From Chloroflexia bacterium (GTDB lineage: Bacteria > Chloroflexota > Chloroflexia > Thermomicrobiales > CFX8), in contig JAUIIK010000031.1 of assembly GCA_030431755.1 (NCBI GenBank), positions 1-43,200 of the forward strand: 43,200 bases of DNA, read 5' to 3'. Positions 783-33,075 of this stretch are shown here, one piece after another. Below the pieces are notes generated by a model. The model did no database searches, had not been told where the DNA came from, and was given only the letters and a program-made list of their open reading frames with translations. Each line of letters opens with the position of its first letter. Within the stretch, counting starts at the first letter, position 1. A program made the translations under genes and the position numbers.

Positions 783-824
783 CGCCCGAGATATTCGATG
801 CGGGAAACCAGGGGAGTTCAATTG

Positions 825-2558
825 ATGCGACGCAGCATGCGGGTGCTGATGGTTGCCGGGTTGTTGGCAGGGCTTGTGCCGCTGCTGCCGGTTGGGGTGG
901 CGATGGCCGCCGATGCGGTCGTCGGTGATGGCACGCCGGAGAGCTGTACGGCGGCGGCGTACAACGATGCTTTCAACACCGTCAATAGTGGTGGTGGGAC
1001 GCTGACCTTCGACTGCGGCGGGCCGGTGACGATCGCGCGCACGAGTTTCAGTCGGGTGCTCTCTTCGCCGGTCATCATCGACGGCGGGAACGAGGTGACG
1101 CTGGATGGCGGTGGAGTGACACGGCTCTTCATCGTCAACTCCGGCGGAGAGCTCGAACTGCGGAATATCGTCCTCGCCAATGCCTCCGAGAGCGGGAGTG
1201 GCGGGGCGATCTCCAGCTTCGGCGACCTGCGTATCGTGAACAGCACGATCCGTGATAGCGCGGCAACCGCTCAGGGCGGCGCGATAAGCAGCTCCTCGAA
1301 TGCGACACTGGCGATTGAGGGAAGCACCTTCACGGGCAACACAGCGCTTGGTGGCGCGGGCGCGATCCAGAGCGCTGGGCCGCTCGATATTGTCGACTCG
1401 GTGTTCAACGATAACAACGCTCCTGATGAGGGCGGCGCGATTCGCAACACTGGAGCGCTCGCGATCGAGCGCAGCAGCTTCATCGGTAACGAAGCTGTTG
1501 ACGATGGCGGCGCGATCTACACCATTGGCGGTAGTCTCGAGATCGAAGCCAGTGTCTTCGACGGCAATCATTCGGACGAGAGTGGCGGAGCGATCTTCCG
1601 GAGCAGCGGGCCACTGGAGATCCTGGATACGACGTTTTCAAACAACTCCGCCGGCAACGACGGCGGCGCGGTTGCAACGACGGGAATCGGTAACAGCACG
1701 GTCTACATCGCGCGCAGCACGTTCTCGGGGAACACAGCCGGCGACGCCGGGGGCGGACTCTCGCATGGCGGAGCGACCGGGCAGTCGGTCGCGACGGTCA
1801 TCGCCAGCACCTTCAGCGGCAACACGGCGAGCGGTGTTGGTGGCGGCCTGCGCATCACCGCCGATCTCGATCTGCAATCCAGCACGGTCTACAACAACAG
1901 CGGGCTGACCTCGGGCGTGTATGCATCTGGACCAGTGACGGCAAGCGGATCGATTGTGGCGGCGAACACCCCGGCGAACTGCAGCGCCGCGCTGGTGTCG
2001 AACGGCTCGAATCTGAGCGATGATGCAAGCTGCGGGTTCATCCAGGGTGACGACATCGAGAACAGCGCGGCGATCGATCTTGGACCGCTGGCGAACAACG
2101 GCGGCCAGACCCGGACGCACATGCCGGAGACCGGCAGTGACGCAATTGACAACGGCTCGACCTGTGGCGGTGTCGATCAACGCGGCTTCCCGCGGCCGGT
2201 AGGCGCGGGTTGTGAGATCGGTAGCGTCGAGCTGCAGACCGACTCGCTCCTGACGCTATGCGCCAGCTATTACACCGGTCGAGTGACGAGCCCGTTGAGT
2301 GGCCAGTGCGGGCCGGGAACCTTCGAACTGGATGTGCCGGAGATGTATCCGTTGACCTTCTGTATCGACATCTACTCCGGGATTCTCTCGTTCAGCCGCA
2401 CCGGAGCCTGCGCCGCGCCACGGCAGCCACACCTGATGCCCGACGCCGGGAACCTATTGACCTGCGTCAGTCTCTACACGGGCGCGAACCGGCGCGTCTA
2501 CGACCACAGCCAGTGCAGCGTGTACGAGCTGCCGAACTTCATCCCGGCGGCCAGCTAA
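825..2558 (+). CDS. Secreted right-handed beta-helix protein with C-terminal YTG module (paralogue 2)
   Basis: A 577-residue exported protein. I chose ATG 825 over in-frame ATG 798 because GGGGAG (811-816) sits 8 bp before it and it begins a clean signal peptide: MRRSMR, a hydrophobic stretch, then a cleavage site after AMA. After an opening segment with a C...FDCGGP motif come many ~22-residue repeats of the kind GGAI-x-S-x-G-x-L-x-I-x-x-STF-x-x-N, typical of pectate-lyase-like parallel beta-helices. A choice-of-anchor-Q-like region (NNGGQTRTHMP, DQRGFPRP, GSVEL) follows. The last ~100 residues are three C-x3-Y[TS]G...C units. No catalytic motif is evident, so an adhesion, envelope or polysaccharide-binding role is inference. 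The gene is flanked by its own promoter-like boxes and a strong terminator. Confidence 0.9.
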   Translation: MRRSMRVLMVAGLLAGLVPLLPVGVAMAADAVVGDGTPESCTAAAYNDAFNTVNSGGGTLTFDCGGPVTIARTSFSRVLSSPVIIDGGNEVTLDGGGVTRLFIVNSGGELELRNIVLANASESGSGGAISSFGDLRIVNSTIRDSAATAQGGAISSSSNATLAIEGSTFTGNTALGGAGAIQSAGPLDIVDSVFNDNNAPDEGGAIRNTGALAIERSSFIGNEAVDDGGAIYTIGGSLEIEASVFDGNHSDESGGAIFRSSGPLEILDTTFSNNSAGNDGGAVATTGIGNSTVYIARSTFSGNTAGDAGGGLSHGGATGQSVATVIASTFSGNTASGVGGGLRITADLDLQSSTVYNNSGLTSGVYASGPVTASGSIVAANTPANCSAALVSNGSNLSDDASCGFIQGDDIENSAAIDLGPLANNGGQTRTHMPETGSDAIDNGSTCGGVDQRGFPRPVGAGCEIGSVELQTDSLLTLCASYYTGRVTSPLSGQCGPGTFELDVPEMYPLTFCIDIYSGILSFSRTGACAAPRQPHLMPDAGNLLTCVSLYTGANRRVYDHSQCSVYELPNFIPAAS

Positions 2559-2586
2559 CCGCCGTCATTCGCATCATCAGGGCGTG

Positions 2587-2617
2587 ATCCGGCCGCGCAA
2601 CCCACGCGCGGCCGGAT
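2587..2617 (+). terminator. Strong hairpin terminator after the 825 gene
   Basis: A 12-bp perfect inverted repeat ATCCGGCCGCGC/GCGCGGCCGGAT with a 7-nt loop begins 28 bp after the stop. It is followed by a mixed TACCCCGTATTT tail. Confidence 0.7.
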
Positions 2618-2777
2618 TACCCCGTATTTCCTATGGCACAGAGCAGGCTAACGACATCTAATGAGAGCGTCGTCAACGGACCTGCGGGCGTTGGCGCGCC
2701 TGCTACACATCCGGTTTGCCGGCTGGCGGAAGCCTCTTACCGGAGAATGACAATGCCTGTGAGAGGAACGCATAGTG

Positions 2778-4874
2778 ATGCGACAGAGATTCCATATCCT
2801 CGCGCTTGTGGCGGTGCTGGCGGGGGTGTTCCCGTTGTTGCCGTCGACGAGCGCGTTGGCTGACGATGCGGTGGTGACGACCTGTACCGAGGCCGGCTTC
2901 GACGCTGCCCTGGCGACGGCGCAGACCAACGGCGGCGGGACGATCAGCTTCAACTGCGGCGGCCCGGCGACGATCACCTTCACCGGCGAAAAGACGATTG
3001 CCGGGGGCAACACCGTCGTCATCGACGGCGGAGACACGGTCATCCTCGACGGTGACGACGCGACCCGGCTGTTCACGGTGGCAGCCGGCGGCACGCTCGA
3101 TCTGCGCAACATCACGTTGCAGAATGGTTCGTCAGATGGAAACGGCGGCGCGATCTACACCAGCGGTGGCACGCTGAAGATCACTGCGAGCACGGTCAAG
3201 GACAATGTTCTGCCGGCCTTTGACGACGGAGACGGCGCTGCGATCTACAGCGCTAGCGGCGTGATCGAGATCATGAACAGCACCTTCAGCGGCAACCTGG
3301 CGCTGGATGGACATGGTGGCGGGATCTACGCAGTTAATAGCACGATCGACATCACCGGCAGCTCGTTCAGTCACAACGACGCGGATGACTCTGGTGGCGC
3401 GATCTATATCTCCAACAGTCCGCTGAACATCGTGTCGAGCACCTTTGACAACAACTCCGCTTACGATACCGGTGGCGGGGTGATCTATATGGCCGCCTCC
3501 ACCGTAGACATTGCCGGAAGCACCTTCCACGACAACTTCAATTCGAACAGAGGCGGCTCGATCTTCGTTGACAGCTTCGGCACGCTTACGGTGACCGGCA
3601 CTGACTTCTTCAACGACAACGCTAGCCAGGGTGGCTCCATCGCGAATGAGGGCGGCGCCGTCGAGGTCAAGTCGAGCACGTTTGACAGCGGCATTAGCAG
3701 TGATGCGGGAGCGATCTGGCACGATTCCGGCGTCTTCACTATCCTGTCGAGCACTTTCACCGCGCACAACGCCTCTGCCTGTGGCGCGGTCCGTTCGTAT
3801 GGCACGATGACGATCACGTCGAGCACCTTCGAAGACAACGGCGTGTCAGGGCGTGGCGGGGCGATCTGCCACAGCGACGGCCAGCTGAAGATCAGCGCTA
3901 GCACCTTCACCGATAACCAGGCGAGCGATACTGGCGGCGCGATCTACTCGGGCGACGGAGGGCTGGAGATCATCGATTCAGTCTTCAGTGGCAACACGAG
4001 CTTTGAAGACGGCGGCGCGCTCGATCTGCGCTCAGATGCGACCGTAACGGGCAGCACCTTCAGTGGTAACCAGACGGACTCTGACGGCAGCGCGATCTAC
4101 AATCGCGGCGACCTGACGGTGACAGCCAGCACCTTCAGCGGCAACATCTCAGACCATGCTGGCAGCGCGATTTACAACGACAGTGTGATGGAGCTGAAGT
4201 CCATCACGGTCACGAACAATACCGGTGGTGGGCTGGAAGGGAACGACCCGGTTACGCTGGCCAACACGCTCATCGCTGATCAGGCCAGTGGCGACGACTG
4301 CTCCGGAGATATCGATTCCGATGGCTACAACCTCGACAGCGATGGCAGCTGCGCTCTCAACCAGCCGACCGACATGCCGAACGGGAATGCCGATCTGGCG
4401 GCGCTCGCCGACAACGGCGGGCCGACCGAGACGCACATGCCAAGCGTGTCGAGCGATGCGGTCGACAACGGCGGCAGCTGCTCCGGCAAGGATCAGCGCG
4501 GCGAGATGCGGCCGGCGCGCCAGGGCTGCGACATCGGCGCGGTCGAGCTGCAAGCGGGCGCAACCTTCACGCTCTGCGCGAACTACTACACCGGCCAGGT
4601 GTCAAGCGCGTTGAGCGGGCAGTGCGCCAGCGGGTCTTACGAGCTGAATGTCCCAGAGATGTACCCGCTGGTCTTCTGCATCGATACCTGGACCGGGCGC
4701 GTCTACTTCAGCCCAAGCAAGGTCTGCAACCCGCCCCGGCGGGCGCATGTGATGCCTGACCACGGCGATCTGTTGACCTGCGTCAGCCTCTACACCGGCG
4801 CGAACCGGTGGGTCCATAACGCCAACCAGTGCAACGCCTACGAGCGGCTGAACGTCGTCCCGGCGTCGCTCTAG
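2778..4874 (+). CDS. Secreted right-handed beta-helix protein with C-terminal YTG module (paralogue 3)
   Basis: A 698-residue exported paralogue of the 825 product and the longest of the array. GTG 2775 and ATG 2778 are adjacent in-frame starts. ATG is preferred, with GAGAGGA at 2761-2767. The signal peptide (MRQRFH..., cut near ALA-DD) leads to a Cys-containing N-terminal segment (CTEAGFDAAL, FNCGGPATITF). About 16 beta-helix repeats of the GGAIY / STF-x-x-N kind follow, rich in Ser/Thr. The end of the helix has the choice-of-anchor-Q-like NNGGPTETHMP/DQRGEMRP/GCDIGAVEL region. The last ~100 residues hold three YTG/WTG units (LCANYYTG, FCIDTWTG, LTCVSLYTG). It is most likely surface-exposed. 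The substrate is not visible. It has its own terminator. Confidence 0.9.
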   Translation: MRQRFHILALVAVLAGVFPLLPSTSALADDAVVTTCTEAGFDAALATAQTNGGGTISFNCGGPATITFTGEKTIAGGNTVVIDGGDTVILDGDDATRLFTVAAGGTLDLRNITLQNGSSDGNGGAIYTSGGTLKITASTVKDNVLPAFDDGDGAAIYSASGVIEIMNSTFSGNLALDGHGGGIYAVNSTIDITGSSFSHNDADDSGGAIYISNSPLNIVSSTFDNNSAYDTGGGVIYMAASTVDIAGSTFHDNFNSNRGGSIFVDSFGTLTVTGTDFFNDNASQGGSIANEGGAVEVKSSTFDSGISSDAGAIWHDSGVFTILSSTFTAHNASACGAVRSYGTMTITSSTFEDNGVSGRGGAICHSDGQLKISASTFTDNQASDTGGAIYSGDGGLEIIDSVFSGNTSFEDGGALDLRSDATVTGSTFSGNQTDSDGSAIYNRGDLTVTASTFSGNISDHAGSAIYNDSVMELKSITVTNNTGGGLEGNDPVTLANTLIADQASGDDCSGDIDSDGYNLDSDGSCALNQPTDMPNGNADLAALADNGGPTETHMPSVSSDAVDNGGSCSGKDQRGEMRPARQGCDIGAVELQAGATFTLCANYYTGQVSSALSGQCASGSYELNVPEMYPLVFCIDTWTGRVYFSPSKVCNPPRRAHVMPDHGDLLTCVSLYTGANRWVHNANQCNAYERLNVVPASL

Positions 4875-4886
4875 CATTCGCCCCTC

Positions 4887-4924
4887 AACCCCGTCGCTTG
4901 CCAGGAGCAAGCGGCGGGGTTTTC
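4887..4924 (+). terminator. Rho-independent terminator
   Basis: A 15-bp stem (4887-4901 with 4907-4921, one G-T wobble) has a 5-nt loop CAGGA and runs into a T-rich tail (4920-4924). It starts 13 bp after the stop of the 2778 gene. Confidence 0.85.
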
Positions 4925-5054
4925 CTGTTGCTCTTTTGACGGACGAAACAGTTCGCTGTGCCGGTTGGAACGGTCGTGACCTTTGGGCCTTTGCCGCGTC
5001 GGCCCGCCAGGAAACAATGTGTCATGTGCATAGTGTGGAAAGGAACGCGCGGCG

Positions 5055-6080
5055 ATGGCGAGGATGTTCTTCGTATTGATGTTTGCAGCCCTGGTTGCTA
5101 CTGGCGGGGCTGTCGCGCCAGTGTCGGCACGGCCGGCGGTAGATGGGATACACCAGACAGGTGACGCTGACGAGCGTCCGCGGCCGGATACGCCAGGCAA
5201 CGGCGCGGCCATCGCCGAGTTCCAGCGCTCGATCACCCATTCGGCGAGTATGGCGGTCGTCTGGCCGACATCGGTCGCCTGCCTCAATAGCGGGTATGCC
5301 GTAGAGAACAAGTATCTCCGAGTCTTTGACCTGCCTGCGTTCGGGATCGGCGATTACTACACAGTCTCCAGCATCGACCTTGGTATCCAGGATTCTTACC
5401 CGGCCGGGGCAACGCAGCCGATCTACGTCAACCTCTACACGCTGGACGGCCCGTTGCTCTACGAGAATATGACGAAGATCGGCGCAGCACGGGCTGATGT
5501 TGGCTACATGATGGACTCGGTCATCAACATCCCGGTAACCGGCGTCGCTCCGCGCGGGGCAAAGCTGGTCGTCGAGATCGACTCGCCCAATCGAGAGGAT
5601 CAAGGCAATAGCTTCTGGATCGGCGCCAATGAATTCGGCCAGACCGGCAAGAGCTACGTCGCCGCGCCGGCTTGCAGTTTGCCGGAGCCGACCGATCTTG
5701 CGGCGGTAGGCTTTCCGAACGTTTCGTTCGTTCTGCGGGTGAATGGCGATGAGCGCGATCCGTTGGCAATTGAGCGATTGTGCGCCAGTTACTACACCGG
5801 CGCGGTGAGCGTGCAGCACCCGGTCAACGGCTGCCCGGCGACGGCGCTGCCAATGACGATGCCACAGGCAGTGAAGTTCTGTGTGAATACCTACACCGGC
5901 GCGCTCACCTGGTCCGCGCGCGGGACGTGTGCGGGTTACGGGATGCGGCAGCATATTCTGCCGGACCACGGGCAACTCGGTGTCTGCTGGAATAGCTGGT
6001 CCGGCGGGCTACGGGCCGCGCGTTCGGCTCTGACCTGCAGCGCGGCCGAGATCTACGGGTACATCCCGGCTGACCGGTAG
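5055..6080 (+). CDS. Secreted protein with jelly-roll-like N-terminal domain and the shared YTG Cys-rich C-terminal module
   Basis: A 341-residue exported protein. ATG 5055 follows GGAAAGGAACGC and begins a signal peptide (MARMFFVLMFAALVATGGA, cut near VSA-RP). Residues ~60-235 are not beta-helix. They look like a beta-sandwich of the kind found in cell-surface proteins (YTVSSIDLGIQ, IYVNLYTLDG, IPVTGVAPRGAKLVVEI); this is pattern recognition only. The last ~100 residues are the same three-unit module as in the neighbouring beta-helix proteins: LCASYYTG, FCVNTYTG, then GVCWNSWSG in place of YTG. Sharing this module with an unrelated N-terminus shows that it is an independent, mobile C-terminal domain. 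Monocistronic, with terminators on both sides. Confidence 0.85.
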   Translation: MARMFFVLMFAALVATGGAVAPVSARPAVDGIHQTGDADERPRPDTPGNGAAIAEFQRSITHSASMAVVWPTSVACLNSGYAVENKYLRVFDLPAFGIGDYYTVSSIDLGIQDSYPAGATQPIYVNLYTLDGPLLYENMTKIGAARADVGYMMDSVINIPVTGVAPRGAKLVVEIDSPNREDQGNSFWIGANEFGQTGKSYVAAPACSLPEPTDLAAVGFPNVSFVLRVNGDERDPLAIERLCASYYTGAVSVQHPVNGCPATALPMTMPQAVKFCVNTYTGALTWSARGTCAGYGMRQHILPDHGQLGVCWNSWSGGLRAARSALTCSAAEIYGYIPADR

Positions 6081-6114
6081 CTGCCAGTCACAAGCACGTC
6101 AGAGAGCAGCGGAC

Positions 6115-6147
6115 ACGAGGGCAACGCCAGCGCGGCGTTGCCCTCGT
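6115..6147 (+). terminator. Strong hairpin terminator after the 5055 gene
   Basis: A 14-bp perfect stem ACGAGGGCAACGCC/GGCGTTGCCCTCGT with a 5-nt loop begins 35 bp after the stop. Confidence 0.75.
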
Positions 6148-6262
6148 TGCGCTATGCTGTAGGAAACTGGTGCGCGTAAGGGCGTGGCCCGATCCACATC
6201 CTGCACGTACACTGAGGTGGCGACCTTCAGGGGATACATCTTCAAGGGAATGGAGAGTGCGG

Positions 6263-8242
6263 ATGCGACGCGGGTGGCGTTTACTGATGATGCTCGGCTT
6301 GCTGGCCGGGCTGGTACCGTTGCTGCCGGTTGGGGTGGCGGTTGCCGATGATGTGGTGGTTGGCGCGCCATGTCTCGAAGGCGACTTCGACACGGCGCTG
6401 GCGGCGGCGCTGACGAATGGCGGCGGCACGATCACCTTCGCCTGCGGCGGCGCGACGACGATTACCTTCACCAGTGTCAAGACGATCACCGCCGGCAACA
6501 CCGTCGTCATTGATGGCGGCGACCTGATCACGCTCGATGGCGCGGACGCGACGCGCATGTTCGATGTGCCGGCCGGCGCGACATTGGAGCTGCGGAACAT
6601 CGCCGTCAACAACGGCAACGACGGCTCAGACTTTGATGACATTGATCCCGGCGGCGCGATCAACGTGCTCGGCACGTTGCGGGTCTTCGACAGCTCCTTC
6701 GATAGCAACGAGGGTGACTGGGAAGGCGGCGCGATCGACAGCGATGGCGGGACCGTCGAGGTCACCCGGTCGACGTTCACGAATAACGGAGCGGGCGGCG
6801 GCGGTGCGATCGACAACGATCCCGGCACGCTGACGATCGTCGATAGCACCTTTGAAGGCAATGGGGCATTTGAGGGTGGCGCGATCTTCTCCGACGGCCC
6901 GTTGGAGATCTCGGGGTCGACCTTCTACCTGAATGACGCATACGACGGTGGCGCTATTCTCAACCTTGGCATGCTAACGCTAACAGGTACGACCTTCGAA
7001 GATAACGAAGCCTTCAATGTTGGCGGGGCGCTGATCCTCGATTATGAGACCGCGACGATCTCTGACAGCGAGTTCCTGTACAACTCGACCATTGACAACG
7101 ATGGCGGCGCGATCTTTATCGCCGAAGATAACACGTCAGCGACGATCACGAACACCGACTTCATCGAGAATGAGTCCGGCGACGACGGTGGCGCCATCGG
7201 GATGTATGGCGGCACGCTGGAGATCACCGGCTCGCTCTTTGAGGGCAACGACGCGAGTGATGGCGGCGCGCTCGATCCCGACGGCGGCAACACGACGATC
7301 ACCGAGTCATCTTTCATCGGCAACTACGCCGATGACGATGGCGGCGCCATCGACTACGACGACCCGGAGGCAGAAGACGATAGTCTGACAATCATCCGCA
7401 GCACCTTCTATGACAATGAGGCCTACGCCGATGGCGGGGCGCTGCATCTGGACGGCACGCTGGCGACGATTGAGTCGAGCACGATCTCCGGGAACTCAAC
7501 GGATGACGACGACGGTGGCGGTATCTATGCGGGCGACAGCGACGGCGAAGTCTTCATCTACAACTCGACGATCACCGACAATGATGCTGACGATGACGGC
7601 AGCGGTATCTACCAGGACGATGGCTCCCTGACGCTGCGGAACACAATCATCGCTGACAATGATGGCGAAGATTGCGATCTCTACGACTCAGTCTCTAACG
7701 GCTACAACCTGGACAGTGACGACACCTGTGATCTCGATCATCCGACGGATATCCCGAACGGCACGGCGGATCTGAACCCAATTGCCGACAACGGCGGGCC
7801 GACGATGACCCACCTGCCGATGGAGACGAGTGATGTGGTTGGCAACGGCGGCCAGTGCTCGGGCACCGACCAGCGGCTGCGGCCACGGCCGGTCGAGGCT
7901 TGTGAGATCGGCTCGGTCGAACTGCAGACAGCGGCGACCTACACGCTCTGTGTGAACTACTACACCGGCCGCGTGTTGAGCCCGCTGAATGGCCAGTGTG
8001 GCGCGGGTACCTACGAGCTGGATGTGCCGGAAGTCTATCCGGTGACCTTCTGCATCGATACCTACACCGGGATCGTGCATGTCACGCGGAGCTGCAACCC
8101 GCCACGCCAGCCGCACCTGATGCCGGACGCCGGCGATCTGTTGACCTGTGTGAACCTCTACACCAGCGTCAACCGGCGTGTCTTGAACGAGAGTCAGTGC
8201 AACGCCTACGAGGTCCCGAACCTTATCCCTGCGGAGCTCTAG
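6263..8242 (+). CDS. Asp-rich secreted beta-helix protein with C-terminal YTG module (paralogue 4)
   Basis: A 659-residue exported paralogue. The frame opens at 6170, but ATG 6263 is chosen: GGAGAG (6252-6257) precedes it and it begins the signal peptide MRRGWRLLMMLGLLAGLV..., cut near VAV-ADD. The same architecture follows: an N-terminal CLEGDFDTAL/FACGGATTITF segment, beta-helix repeats, a choice-of-anchor-Q-like region (NNGG replaced by DNGGPTMTHLP), and three YTG units. Unlike its paralogues the beta-helix turns are full of Asp and Glu (repeated DDDGG, EDN). That would give a very acidic surface and possible Ca2+ sites (inference). Terminators bracket the gene. Confidence 0.9.
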   Translation: MRRGWRLLMMLGLLAGLVPLLPVGVAVADDVVVGAPCLEGDFDTALAAALTNGGGTITFACGGATTITFTSVKTITAGNTVVIDGGDLITLDGADATRMFDVPAGATLELRNIAVNNGNDGSDFDDIDPGGAINVLGTLRVFDSSFDSNEGDWEGGAIDSDGGTVEVTRSTFTNNGAGGGGAIDNDPGTLTIVDSTFEGNGAFEGGAIFSDGPLEISGSTFYLNDAYDGGAILNLGMLTLTGTTFEDNEAFNVGGALILDYETATISDSEFLYNSTIDNDGGAIFIAEDNTSATITNTDFIENESGDDGGAIGMYGGTLEITGSLFEGNDASDGGALDPDGGNTTITESSFIGNYADDDGGAIDYDDPEAEDDSLTIIRSTFYDNEAYADGGALHLDGTLATIESSTISGNSTDDDDGGGIYAGDSDGEVFIYNSTITDNDADDDGSGIYQDDGSLTLRNTIIADNDGEDCDLYDSVSNGYNLDSDDTCDLDHPTDIPNGTADLNPIADNGGPTMTHLPMETSDVVGNGGQCSGTDQRLRPRPVEACEIGSVELQTAATYTLCVNYYTGRVLSPLNGQCGAGTYELDVPEVYPVTFCIDTYTGIVHVTRSCNPPRQPHLMPDAGDLLTCVNLYTSVNRRVLNESQCNAYEVPNLIPAEL

Positions 8243-9951: not shown

Positions 9952-11862
9952 TTAGCTGAAGCCGCGGCTGCCGCCGCCACCACCGCCGCCGAATGAGCCG
10001 CCGCCGCCGCTGAAGCCGCCACCGGAGCGGCCGCTGGAGTTCGAGTAGGGGCGGAAGGTCGATGAGGCCTGGTTGAACATGCTGAAGAGCCCGTCGCTCA
10101 TGCCCTGGAGCGAGCTGGAGAAGCCGCCGCTCATATCGTTGAGGGACGGCATTCCAGGGCCGCTGCCGCCACCGCCGCTATTGACGATGACCGGGCGCTG
10201 GCGGTGCCAGTCGCGCATGTGGCGCGGCCCGTACCAGCGCGGCGCGGGCGCGCCAATGCGGGCAAACTTCCGCACCCAGCTCTTCTCGATCCCGAAGGCG
10301 ATGGCGTAGGGCAGGTACTTCTCGAAGACATCCTGGGCCTCGGCGAGGTCGCCATATTGCTCGATCTGCTCGAGATAGCGGCGGAAGGCCACCCAGCGGG
10401 CGGCAGCTTCCGCGCCTTTCGGCGTCTTGCGGGGCATCCAGCGCGAGGCGATGATGACGCCGATGGCGACGATGCCGAGGCCGATCAGAACGGCAATGGC
10501 GAAGGGCGCGAAGCTCCCGACCGCGCCCCAGAAGACGAAGCCCAGGAAGGCGATTGCGCCGAAGAGCACCATCCCGCCAATGCGCCAGCCGGTCCGAACC
10601 GATTCCGGGTTGCTCGGGAAGTAGCCGCGTTGGACGAGCTCGGCGTAGTAGGCCTTGCGGACCTCCGTCTGCTTCTGGCCGAAGCTCTTGCGGATGTCCT
10701 TGAGATTGACCGTCGTGCGGCTCCCGAAGAGCGTCGTCGCCATCGACCGTTCGGAGGTGCTGAGCCCTTCGAAGGAGCCGATCTTGCTGATTTGCCAGTC
10801 GCGGCCGGTCGTGACGCCGAGGATCTCCGAGTTGTCCTCCTCGATGTGGATGATGTCGCGCTCGGCAAGGTCGACCATCGTCGCGATCAGGTCATGGATG
10901 TCGGCCCGTTCGTCGATGAGCGTGCCAACGACGCCGGGCGGCAGGTCGTCTGGCGGCTCGCGCAAGATGTCGACCGGGATCTCGACCGGCGTGTCGCGCC
11001 CGTAGCTGTGCCAGATGCCGTAGAGGGCAACCGGCCCGCCGACGGCGAGCATCAAGCCCGCGCCGAGAAAGAGGACGTTGGCGAGCGCCTTGTATGGCTC
11101 CAGCCGCTCCTCGCGAGCGCGGCGGGCGTCGTCGGCAGCTTGCCAGGTCGGTTCGCTGGCAGTGGTGATCTGTGGGAATGTGACGCGCGGCTCAATGGCG
11201 CCGCCCTGGTCGATGTTCGTGGCCTGGAAGATGACGGTGTCGCCGTCGATCTGCTGGATCGTGACGTTGTCGGCGTCGTAGTCGTGGGTGAAGACTTCGG
11301 CCAGGAGATCGTTTTCGGATAGCTCGGACGGCAGGTTGATGGTGATCGTGCTGCTGGTGATGTCGGCTGCGAAGTCCTCGTCGATGGCCCGCCACCAGAC
11401 CTGGTTGGTCGGCGGGTCGCCATAGACGCGCAGGCCGCCGCGTATGTCGTAGCTGAGGGTGAACTGGCGGGACTCCGGGCCGATGGCCGGCGCGAAGTAC
11501 CAGCGGATATCGAGATCGCCGCCGAACTGGCTGAGCCGGTAGGTGTTGGGCTGGCTGAAGCTGCCGTCGTCGCGGACGTAGGGCGTGCCGTCTTCGGAAA
11601 GCTCGACGTTGGAGATCTCCTCGATCCGGCCAAGCGGGATGACGGCGAAGCCCTGGCTGAAATAGCCGCTGTCGAAGGAGATCACCTGATCCTCAGTGAC
11701 GTGGAAGGTGCCGTCCTGGTTGACGTCGATGGTGACATCGTAGCGTTCCCAGTGGAGGGTCTTCTCGCCCGGCGTCGTCGTATCGCAGGCGCTGAGCACC
11801 AGCACCAAGACCAGCACGCTCGCGAGTGCCGCGAAACGTCCGAGATTTGCCCGGCTCATCAC
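9952..11862 (-). CDS. DUF2207-family membrane lipoprotein with Gly-rich C-terminal tail
   Basis: A 636-residue envelope protein. GTG 11862 and ATG 11859 are adjacent starts, with AGGAG upstream on the minus strand. It begins with a lipoprotein signal (LVLVLVLSAC, lipobox LSAC), then a long beta-rich extracytoplasmic DUF2207 domain (WERYDVTIDVNQDGTFHVTE...). A transmembrane segment lies near residue 265-285, a cytosolic region follows (FGSRTTVNLKDIRKSFG), and two more membrane segments near residues 430-475. The last ~45 residues are low-complexity glycine and serine (GGGGSFGGGGGGGSRGFS). This layout and the glycine tail are typical of DUF2207 (YciQ-like) proteins, whose role is not established. 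It is transcribed alone. Confidence 0.85.
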   Translation of the reverse strand: MMSRANLGRFAALASVLVLVLVLSACDTTTPGEKTLHWERYDVTIDVNQDGTFHVTEDQVISFDSGYFSQGFAVIPLGRIEEISNVELSEDGTPYVRDDGSFSQPNTYRLSQFGGDLDIRWYFAPAIGPESRQFTLSYDIRGGLRVYGDPPTNQVWWRAIDEDFAADITSSTITINLPSELSENDLLAEVFTHDYDADNVTIQQIDGDTVIFQATNIDQGGAIEPRVTFPQITTASEPTWQAADDARRAREERLEPYKALANVLFLGAGLMLAVGGPVALYGIWHSYGRDTPVEIPVDILREPPDDLPPGVVGTLIDERADIHDLIATMVDLAERDIIHIEEDNSEILGVTTGRDWQISKIGSFEGLSTSERSMATTLFGSRTTVNLKDIRKSFGQKQTEVRKAYYAELVQRGYFPSNPESVRTGWRIGGMVLFGAIAFLGFVFWGAVGSFAPFAIAVLIGLGIVAIGVIIASRWMPRKTPKGAEAAARWVAFRRYLEQIEQYGDLAEAQDVFEKYLPYAIAFGIEKSWVRKFARIGAPAPRWYGPRHMRDWHRQRPVIVNSGGGGSGPGMPSLNDMSGGFSSSLQGMSDGLFSMFNQASSTFRPYSNSSGRSGGGFSGGGGSFGGGGGGGSRGFS

Positions 11863-30349: not shown

Positions 30350-32266
30350 CTAGTGTCCGAGCGGCTCGTGCCTCCGGACCGTGTTGAAGATGCCCGTGGG
30401 GGCGGGAATGTCGGTGAGCTCGGCGACGAGCTCGAGCGTCTCCGCATCGTAGACACGGACGGTATTGCCGGTCCAGTCACTGATGTAAACAAACTCGCCA
30501 TCGTCGGTGAACTCCGGATGCAGCGTCATGACGCCGTCATCAATCACCCCGACGATCTCGAAGGGCGCTTCCTTCTCGAAGACTGTGATCGTGTTCGACG
30601 GGTCGCCGAAGAGCGCGTCCGCCCAGACATAGGGGCTGTTTTCGGCTGCCCGCAGGAAGAGGCCGGGGCCGGCTGTCGGCACCGTTCCGACGATCTCGTT
30701 CGTCGCCAGATCCCAGACCGTGACCTTGCCTTCCGCGGCATGGACCGTCGCGCCGTAGGTCGTGCCATCCGCTTCCCAGACAGCGCCCGAGCCGGGGTGG
30801 GGCGTGTCGCCGGTCGGGATCTGCTCGACCAGCTCGGCCTTCTCGACATCGATGACGGCCATCCAGTTGTCGGTCTGCGACGCGACGTAGAAGTACTTGT
30901 TGTCCGGGCTGAGGAAGCCGTCGTGGAGGATGTTGCCGACATTCTCGATCTTATCGATCGGGAACTCCGGATCGGAGAAGTCGATGCGCCAGATCTGCCC
31001 GGCCTCTTTCAGCGCGATCAGGAAGTACGGTCCGACCATCTCCATCGAGACATCGCTAGTGATGCAGACGCGCGAGTTGACGACCTCGCCGCTAGGGCTC
31101 GCGCCGACCGTCTCGATGACCTTGAGCGGTTCCAACGTCTCGGCATCGAGGATGACGGCGCTATTCGGGATGAAGTTGCCGATCAGGAGGTACTTACCAT
31201 CGTCGGACATCGCCAGGCCGCGCGAGTCCAGCCCGACGCGCACCTTCCGGACCGCCTGGAGGGTGTAGAGGTCGATCTTGAAGAGCCAGCCGTCGCGGCC
31301 GACGTTGTAGGCCCAGCGCTCGTTGGTCGGGTCGAAGGTGTAGCCGTGGGCCCGGTAGCTGGCCGGCACGTGGGCCAGGAGTTCATTGGTGTCGCCGTCA
31401 ACGACGGCGATGGCCCGGCTCTCGCGCTCGGTGATGAGCATCAGGTTGTCGATGTTGCCCGTGTGCTGCGGTTCATCGGGCAAGGTCGATTCGTCAACGA
31501 GCACTTCTAGCGTCGGGGCGATCTCGTCGAGCTCCCATTTCACGGCGTCGGCATCCGGTTCGGTGCGGATGTAGCCGACGAGCCCCCAGATCTCCTCATC
31601 AGAGAGGCCGAGCTGTTCCCAGGCGGGCATGACCGTTCCTGGGCGGCCGTCGGCGATGACGTTGAAGTAGAAATCGTCGTCCGAGGTCAGACGCCCGGGG
31701 ACCAACGCCGGGCCGGTCGCGCCTTCGCGGTTCGGCCCGTGGCAGCCGCCGCAGGCATCGGTGAAGTAGTCGGCGACCGGCTTGCCCTCGAAGTATTCGG
31801 CTGCCACCGCCGCGCTCGCGACGACGATGACCCGGCCCTGGATGCTGTCGTCCAGCTCATCATGGTACGGGTAAGTGCCGGGCTCGTTGAACTGCCACTC
31901 GAAGCTGTCGCCCGGCGCGATCTCCTGGTGGAACCAGCCGTCGTCGCTGGTGATCGTGTGCGGGCTGTCGCTGTCGTTGGTCCAGGTGATCGTTGCTCCG
32001 GTCGCGACGTAGATTGTGCGGTCGGATTCTGCCAACGCGCTGATCGAGGGTTCGGCATGTGAGACGGCTTCGATCGGGCCGGTCGGCGCGTCACCATCGA
32101 CATCCGCGTCGTCCGCTGATGTCGCCGTTGGCGCTTCCGCTGCCTCGGTTGCCGTGGCGTCGGCCGGCGTCGCCGTCGGATCGTCATCGTCGTCGGATAG
32201 ACAGGCAACCGTTGTGAAGCTCGCGATGAGCAAGAGCGGAACGAGATAGCGTAGGTAGCGTTTCAC
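30350..32266 (-). CDS. Cupredoxin - cytochrome c - cytochrome cd1-like fusion lipoprotein
   Basis: A 638-residue exported protein. GTG 32266 follows GAGGAG by about 8 bp. The signal ends at Cys22 (TTVAC), then an acidic, Thr-rich linker. Residues ~65-150 are a cupredoxin domain: His103 is kept, but Cys, His and Met of the copper site appear as Asp136, Asp139 and Ile142. Residues ~155-240 are a cytochrome c domain with C172-x2-C175-H176 and likely axial Met213. Residues ~265-638 are an eight-bladed-propeller-like region strongly resembling the d1-heme domain of cytochrome cd1 (NirS/NirN/NirF): AIAVVDGDT, VGRDGWLFKIDL, AETLEPLKVIET, LHDGFLS, TPHPGSG. Probable proximal d1 ligand His307 and active-site His490 remain; the second active-site His is not evident. 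Confidence 0.8.
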   Translation of the reverse strand: MKRYLRYLVPLLLIASFTTVACLSDDDDDPTATPADATATEAAEAPTATSADDADVDGDAPTGPIEAVSHAEPSISALAESDRTIYVATGATITWTNDSDSPHTITSDDGWFHQEIAPGDSFEWQFNEPGTYPYHDELDDSIQGRVIVVASAAVAAEYFEGKPVADYFTDACGGCHGPNREGATGPALVPGRLTSDDDFYFNVIADGRPGTVMPAWEQLGLSDEEIWGLVGYIRTEPDADAVKWELDEIAPTLEVLVDESTLPDEPQHTGNIDNLMLITERESRAIAVVDGDTNELLAHVPASYRAHGYTFDPTNERWAYNVGRDGWLFKIDLYTLQAVRKVRVGLDSRGLAMSDDGKYLLIGNFIPNSAVILDAETLEPLKVIETVGASPSGEVVNSRVCITSDVSMEMVGPYFLIALKEAGQIWRIDFSDPEFPIDKIENVGNILHDGFLSPDNKYFYVASQTDNWMAVIDVEKAELVEQIPTGDTPHPGSGAVWEADGTTYGATVHAAEGKVTVWDLATNEIVGTVPTAGPGLFLRAAENSPYVWADALFGDPSNTITVFEKEAPFEIVGVIDDGVMTLHPEFTDDGEFVYISDWTGNTVRVYDAETLELVAELTDIPAPTGIFNTVRRHEPLGH

Positions 32267-32394
32267 GGGCAGGCTCCTCGGTCAGTGGCGCTAGGTTCTC
32301 CCTTCCATTCTCTGGACGCTGCCGTCCACCGTCTGTGCCTTTTCGCACGAACTCGCTACGATGCGTGCGGAGCCTGAAGCGGGGAGGTCGGTGC

Positions 32395-33075
32395 GTGGCG
32401 AACAAGTGGGCGAACACGGAGCAGCTTGCGGCGCAACTTCACGATGTGCCCTACTTCGCCGGTCTCGGAGATGTCGTCATCGCAGAGAGCGCCCGGCAGA
32501 TGGTAGTCCGCAGCTACGCGCAGGGCGAGCAGATCTTCCTCAAAGGGGAAGGCGTCGGAGAAGCGCCATTTCGCCTCGTCCTCGACGGCACGGTGCGCAT
32601 CTATGTCATCTCCCCGCGCGGCCGCGAGCAGGTGCTGCGCCTTTTCAACGCCGGTGACACTTTCGCCGATGTGCCGCTCTTCGACGGCGGCGGCTACCCG
32701 GCCAGTGCCGACGCGCTCACCCCGGTCACCCTCGGGCTGCTGCCGCGCAACCATCTGCTTCGACTGATGGGGGACCATCCGGAGCTAGCGCTCAACATCG
32801 TCGGTGTCATGGCCGGGCGCTTGCGCCACTTCAACACGTTGATCGAAGACCTATCCCTCCGCCGGGTGCGTAGCCGTGTCGCGCACATGCTGGCGGCGGA
32901 GCAGGCCTCGGCGCTCACCCAGGCGCAGATGGCGGCGATGATCGGCTCGTCCCGTGAGATGGTCAACCGGTCGCTCCACAGCCTCGAAGACGAGGCCGTC
33001 ATCGAGCTCCATGACGACGGCACGTTGAAGATTCTCGACGCCGGTCGGCTGGCGGAGATCGTTGACGATTACTAG
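32395..33075 (+). CDS. Crp/Fnr-family transcriptional regulator
   Basis: A 226-residue regulator. I chose GTG 32395, 8 bp after GGGGAGG (32380-32386). The frame is open from 32335. N-terminal cyclic-nucleotide-binding-like domain (YFAGLGDVVIAES..., YAQGEQIFLKGE, LVLDGTVRIYVISPRGREQVLRLF), a long dimer helix, and a C-terminal winged helix (LTQAQMAAMIGSSREMVNRSL). No N-terminal Cys cluster for an Fe-S centre is present, so a Dnr- or Crp-like ligand sensor fits better than FNR. Divergent from the cd1-like operon with a 128-bp gap, so control of that operon is likely (inference). Confidence 0.88.
   Translation: MANKWANTEQLAAQLHDVPYFAGLGDVVIAESARQMVVRSYAQGEQIFLKGEGVGEAPFRLVLDGTVRIYVISPRGREQVLRLFNAGDTFADVPLFDGGGYPASADALTPVTLGLLPRNHLLRLMGDHPELALNIVGVMAGRLRHFNTLIEDLSLRRVRSRVAHMLAAEQASALTQAQMAAMIGSSREMVNRSLHSLEDEAVIELHDDGTLKILDAGRLAEIVDDY

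Follow-up and report, generated by a model that had tools for sequence, protein, structure and literature searches.

The nirS gene serves as a marker of denitrification, and the locus described here encodes a relative of its product. In Chloroflexi, C1-C2-NirS fusions have been reported, some of them with an N-terminal cupredoxin and with His327 conserved; no further denitrification genes were found near them, and C2-NirS without C1 was stated not to have been seen in this phylum (Schwartz et al. 2022, PMC8756737). PMC10999283 assigns the C1-C2-NirS fusion to NirS clade 1g, describes outside it a deep Clade 5 with members from Chloroflexi, Proteobacteria, Actinobacteriota and Planctomycetota, and reports that the presence of the nirBEFJNT genes varies between clades. 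The known heme d1 pathway requires the siroheme decarboxylase NirDLGH, NirJ, NirF/NirC and NirN (PMC13168839).

In the 43,200-nt stretch of DNA analysed here (the window), positions 30350 to 32266 of the minus strand encode a 638-residue cupredoxin-cytochrome c-cytochrome d1 lipoprotein (the cd1 lipoprotein), as established from the open reading frame, its Pfam domains and its Chloroflexota homologues (52-73% identity). The start codon is GTG, with a GAGGAG-type ribosome-binding site ahead. Residues 1-22 (32201 to 32266, minus strand) form a signal peptide with a probable lipobox (TVA-C22), read from the translation, and lipoboxes are also apparent (VAC and TGC) in the cupredoxin-less relatives L006 and L065. 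The initial annotation had placed three redox modules in a single lipoprotein, and Pfam finds all three, each exceeding its curated cut-off. These are a cupredoxin (residues 78-150; 31817 to 32035, minus strand), matched by Cupredoxin_1 (PF13473, 35.3 bits, residues 85-148) and supported by alignment to the intact domains of L004, L005 and L063 and by a pLDDT of about 75-91; a cytochrome c domain (residues 160-236; 31559 to 31789, minus strand), matched by Cytochrome_CBB3 (PF13442, 43.8 bits, residues 166-233); and a cytochrome d1 propeller (residues 262-632; 30371 to 31483, minus strand), matched by Cytochrom_D1 (PF02239, residues 271-631). This domain assignment is secure. The reading frame is open and GC3 is 0.87-0.89 across all three domains, which argues against a pseudogene.

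The propeller is a genuine D1 domain, since it scores 260.9 bits with PF02239 against a cut-off of 25.5 and covers profile positions 2-367 of 368. Models of generic YVTN or WD40 propellers stay below 70 bits, which rules them out. The best solved structures by sequence were NirN (232 bits), NirS (157 bits) and NirF (100 bits), and Foldseek with an AlphaFold model retrieved the same three proteins first, well before other propellers. Note that the model (mean pLDDT 67) is mostly good in the cupredoxin and the propeller and poor in the cytochrome c domain, and is too uneven for c-d1 geometry. A lactonase-type N2O reductase (L-NosZ) was also considered and rejected: the cd1 lipoprotein reaches 54 bits, where the cut-off is 700, and NirN of proteobacteria scores much the same (51 bits), so the match reflects only a shared propeller similarity.

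We then compared the d1 pocket with 11 NirS, 9 Chloroflexi C1-C2-NirS, 7 NirN and 6 NirF sequences, using the active-site residues published for P. aeruginosa NirS (PMC7278500); the numbering was checked with the P. mandelii NirS precursor, whose residues are shifted from the published ones by a constant 27. His307, the proximal ligand, and His490, both of which had been proposed to be kept, align with NirS His182 and His369. However, the claim that the second active-site His of NirS was lost proved wrong: His448 (codon at 30923 to 30925, minus strand), in the motif LHDG, aligns with P. aeruginosa His327 and P. pantotrophus His345. This position is His in all 20 NirS-type sequences, Asp in 7/7 NirN and Tyr in 6/6 NirF, and His448 is present in every member of the clade of the cd1 lipoprotein and its relatives (clade A) that covers it. 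Arg156, Arg198 and Arg372 contact the heme d1 side chains in NirS and Trp498 is the lid; the equivalents of Arg156, Arg198 and Trp498 are retained as Arg281, Arg324 and Trp598 and, together with the His triad, are invariant in clade A where covered. The equivalent of Arg372 is Ser493, as in most NirN, and the PH-x-G-S motif of the cd1 lipoprotein also matches NirN. This position is Pro in two divergent NirS sequences, L033 among them; L033 (genome G569) and L031 (G511), both from alphaproteobacterial genomes, are divergent NirS on a supported branch of their own.

In the tree, clade A was supported (99/98) and was separate from NirS plus C1-C2-NirS (100/99), from NirN (100/100) and from NirF (100/100). 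Under midpoint rooting its branch precedes the split of NirN and NirS (94/83), a placement for which the rooting is insecure and the sampling limited. These results bear on the suggestion that the protein is NirN/NirF-like, which stood as regards overall similarity, higher to NirN than to NirS, and failed as regards both the distal His pair, which is that of NirS, and the tree, where the protein groups with neither. A NirN-like role in periplasmic heme d1 maturation, rather than as a reductase, thus has in its favour that NirN is the top match by sequence and by fold and has the PH-x-G-S motif and Ser493 in common. Nevertheless, we consider this role very unlikely, given that NirN has Asp at position 448 and no Arg at 281, that the two clades are separate, and that the genome encodes no NirS to mature, because each carrier holds exactly one D1 gene.

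Clade A was detected in 11 of the 396 genomes in the class to which G505 (a Chloroflexota MAG labelled Anaerolineales) belongs, and among the 158 genomes of the cd1 lipoprotein's own class it was found only in the one that carries 30350 to 32266. This distribution fits horizontal transfer, without proving it.

The two N-terminal domains differ in their conservation. As had been proposed, the cytochrome c motif is intact: C172-x-x-C175-H176 is the single CxxCH of the whole ORF, the axial Met213 is present too, and these heme c ligands are invariant in 15/15 clade A sequences. By contrast, the cupredoxin is far less conserved than the c-d1 core, for which full-length clade A members are 55-74% identical to the cd1 lipoprotein in the c domain and 59-74% in the d1 domain. 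A type-1 copper site uses His, Cys, His and usually Met; here the first His (H103) is kept, and the others are changed (C136D, H139D and M142I). Alignment to intact relatives showed that the ligands were replaced in register, in agreement with the loss postulated by the initial annotation, and the alternative that they were displaced did not hold.

Among the 17 members of clade A, the copper site is intact in five, partial in two and lost in eight (the cd1 lipoprotein included), and two have no domain. The full His/Cys/His/Met set is found in L004, L005, L009, L063 and L072; L008 is without the Met only, and in L064 Ser replaces Cys and Thr replaces Met; the site is gone in L007, L066-L070, L071 and the cd1 lipoprotein itself; and the domain is absent from L006 and L065. 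L072 is truncated, and the assembled sequences of L008 and L009 contain frameshifts, so both were read from the frames; their cd1 genes (at about 10001-11494 and 10001-11721, respectively) are split across frames, maybe through assembly errors or because the genes are broken. In the c-d1 tree, members without a copper site make up two supported groups, one at 96/99 and the other, formed by the cd1 lipoprotein, L065 and L071, at 92/87. This grouping suggests that the copper site was lost repeatedly in clade A, although the tree test forces no more than one change. We read the cupredoxin as a probably dispensable, vestigial domain that may formerly have served for electron entry; the gradation from intact to absent sites would then record an electron-entry domain being shed while the catalytic core stayed fixed.

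A functional rather than vestigial cupredoxin would require another metal, bound through H103, H135 and the acidic loop D136/E137/D139/D140. The loop (HDELDD) does offer potential ligands, and L071 has a similar one (YHDDTD), but the remaining copper-less members are without such residues (L007 has TTAAN, and most of L066-L070 are similar in this respect), and the domain is missing altogether from two members, so we regard this repurposing as improbable. As a separate observation, the cd1 ORF of L071 (genome G701, 1501-3918, minus strand) seems to encode two further elements ahead of the cupredoxin, a segment of the carboxypeptidase-regulatory-like kind and a dockerin-like repeat (DTDGNNRVDLFDL...DLNDDGITDLFDL); if real, this arrangement would be uncommon among cd1 proteins.

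Next, we asked where the heme d1 would come from. The initial annotation had noted that the window holds no d1-heme biosynthesis genes, and the absence extends to the whole genome for the genes searched, nirJ, nirDLGH and nirF. As a control, the siroheme decarboxylase family PF17805 was present in four copies in each of 6/6 proteobacterial NirS genomes. It was found in none of the 16 distinct Chloroflexota cd1 carriers searched, the genome with the cd1 lipoprotein among them (7 carriers belong to clade A, 9 to clade B; G386 and G508 counted once), two of the clade B genomes being single-contig with 99% completeness. NirF and NirN were likewise absent from these carriers, each of which holds exactly one D1-domain gene (or one frameshifted); the second PF02239 match of the own genome (C209, 27 bits) reads as a generic propeller fragment and not as NirF. 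The own genome yielded no radical SAM protein at the level of NirJ: its best match to TIGR04053 reaches 38 bits, compared with 146-184 bits for true NirJ proteins, and the best match to TIGR04051 reaches 40 bits. The search for NirJ itself covered the own genome, and for the other carriers TIGR04053 is an indirect test. As a possible NirJ substitute the TIGR04053 radical SAM protein was discarded here, being present in several Chloroflexota carriers and absent from the own genome. Elsewhere, on the Thermus thermophilus plasmid AP031329.1 (L051, 8902-11721), nirS adjoins a TIGR04053 radical SAM/SPASM gene related to AhbD (heme synthase), which might replace NirJ.

The clade A genomes are MAGs, and since all of them show the same gap, incompleteness can hardly be blamed for the absence of the pathway. 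Doubt over the supply of heme d1 is therefore justified. As the known pathway was not found in the genome, the cofactor would have to be taken up from neighbouring organisms or come from an unrecognised route. Another possibility is that the tetrapyrrole in the propeller is not heme d1 but, for example, siroheme, one of its derivatives or heme b, and that the protein is a reductase of nitrite or another small anion. This would account for carriers that in 16/16 cases have no PF17805, no second D1 protein and no NirF, where proteobacterial NirS genomes have four PF17805 copies each, and the Arg372-to-Ser change alters one side-chain contact in clade A. However, the iron-ligand His, both distal His residues, two of the three Arg residues that contact the side chains and the lid Trp are all retained. 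Moreover, clade B carriers, whose NirS pockets are unmodified, Arg372 included, are without the same genes, so gene absence alone implies no different heme. We consider a different tetrapyrrole unlikely, although the least unlikely of the alternatives to a d1-type heme protein of the NirS kind. Somewhat less likely than not, yet well within reach, is a broader view in which clade A, beside NirS, NirN and NirF, is a fourth deep c-d1 lineage that kept a NirS-type site without making its own d1, using instead a cofactor scavenged from denitrifiers nearby, an undescribed route or another tetrapyrrole.

The neighbourhood was also examined. A Crp/Fnr-family regulator (32335 to 33075, plus strand; PF00027 and PF13545) is divergent from the cd1 gene, and genes of the Crp/Fnr family likewise occur close to the cd1 genes of L005 and L063 (clade A) and of L019 and L021 (clade B). 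The other neighbours are a SufS-family desulfurase, a CopD-like protein, a luciferase-like oxidoreductase and an amidohydrolase, none of which was seen at the related loci, whose flanks are mostly short. The FNR box (TTGATN4ATCAA) has 19 near-matches across the window, compared with 7.6 expected, and 0/100 shuffles were as high; many contain GATC, so composition may account for the excess, and the cd1 gene has none in its upstream intergenic region. Elsewhere in the window, 798-8242 holds three ORFs (586, 699 and 690 aa) rich in Chlam_PMP/beta-helix repeats, and between 36001 and 42000 the G+C content falls from about 0.64 to 0.54; the genes there encode a Hypoth_Ymh protein, a large helicase and a desaturase, and the DNA may have been acquired.

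The own genome yielded no recognised NO reductase, a result that for the larger heme-copper oxidase match (C44) stops short of single residues. Two candidates were rejected: the heme-copper oxidase at C244 has a CuA-type subunit II beside it and resembles a ba3-type oxidase, and a weak match at C51 is NnrS-like and below cut-off. The latter (genome G000, C51 7750-8055, L075) is a membrane protein with 24.7 bits to NnrS and could have a link to NO stress. The absence of a recognised NO reductase would suit an oxidoreductase of unrelated function built on the cd1 fold, with a role in the chemistry of O2 or hydroxylamine or in NO signalling, and Schwartz et al. (PMC8756737) raise a non-denitrifying role for Chloroflexi NirS. 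Since the nitrite-binding His pair is complete and Crp/Fnr regulators are recurrently adjacent, we give such a function little chance.

From the sequence, we propose with moderate confidence that the cd1 lipoprotein is a lipid-anchored, extracytoplasmic cytochrome cd1 of the NirS kind, in which the cupredoxin is vestigial and the d1-type heme is obtained from outside or by an unrecognised route. An external donor would reduce heme c, which would hand electrons to the d1-type heme, for which His307 of the propeller would be the ligand; His448 and His490 would bind the substrate anion, most likely nitrite, and protonate it, and its reduction would yield NO. The N-terminal cupredoxin would once have been the point of electron entry and, with its copper site decayed, may keep at most a structural or docking role, and the cofactor would be scavenged from neighbours or produced by an unrecognised route. 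In support of a NirS-like enzyme are the D1 score (261 bits), the full His triad, the equivalents of R156, R198 and W498, the invariant heme c ligands, the Foldseek ranking, the Crp/Fnr regulator adjacent here and at four other loci of both clades, and the loss of the copper ligands or of the whole domain while the c-d1 core stays conserved. Against it are the higher similarity to NirN, a dehydrogenase, than to NirS, the Ser493 at the Arg372 position, and a genome in which no siroheme decarboxylase, NirF, NirN, NirJ-level protein or NO reductase was found. If Chloroflexota do hold a cd1 enzyme with its catalytic site and without the known d1 pathway, nitrite reduction by them would rely on the cofactor of others, on an unknown route or on a substitute.

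Finally, we compared the cd1 lipoprotein with the known systems. With NirS (PDB 1nir, 1aof and others) it has in common the three active-site His residues, the Arg156, Arg198 and Trp498 equivalents and the His/Met ligands of heme c; it differs in its identity to NirS-type proteins (about 33%), Ser for Arg372, its separate clade, its cupredoxin N-terminus and the lack of d1 biosynthesis genes found. NirN (the dihydro-heme d1 dehydrogenase of P. aeruginosa, PDB 6rtd/6rte) has the same layout of heme c and d1 propeller and the Ser493, but it has Asp for His448, no Arg at 281 and no cupredoxin, and partners NirS, which is absent from the genome of the cd1 lipoprotein. NirF (PDB 6tv2) has in common the d1-propeller fold and the proximal His; it has no heme c and a Tyr at 448, and is distant in the tree, whereas the cd1 lipoprotein has heme c and His448. 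The Chloroflexi C1-C2-NirS proteins come from the same phylum, are c-d1 enzymes with a cupredoxin in some cases, and are likewise encoded by lone genes outside a denitrification cluster. Unlike them, the cd1 lipoprotein has no C1 cytochrome, a region found only in clade B, and it is 30-36% identical to them and belongs to a different clade. The architecture is thus partly published already, in the C1-C2-NirS fusions with a cupredoxin. Clade 5 of PMC10999283 may include clade A, and the missing pathway may partly be on record in the tables of that paper. What seems to be new is the control-backed absence of NirDLGH and NirF, the architecture without C1, the series of copper-site decay and the presence of the NirS triad in a lineage nearer to NirN by similarity.
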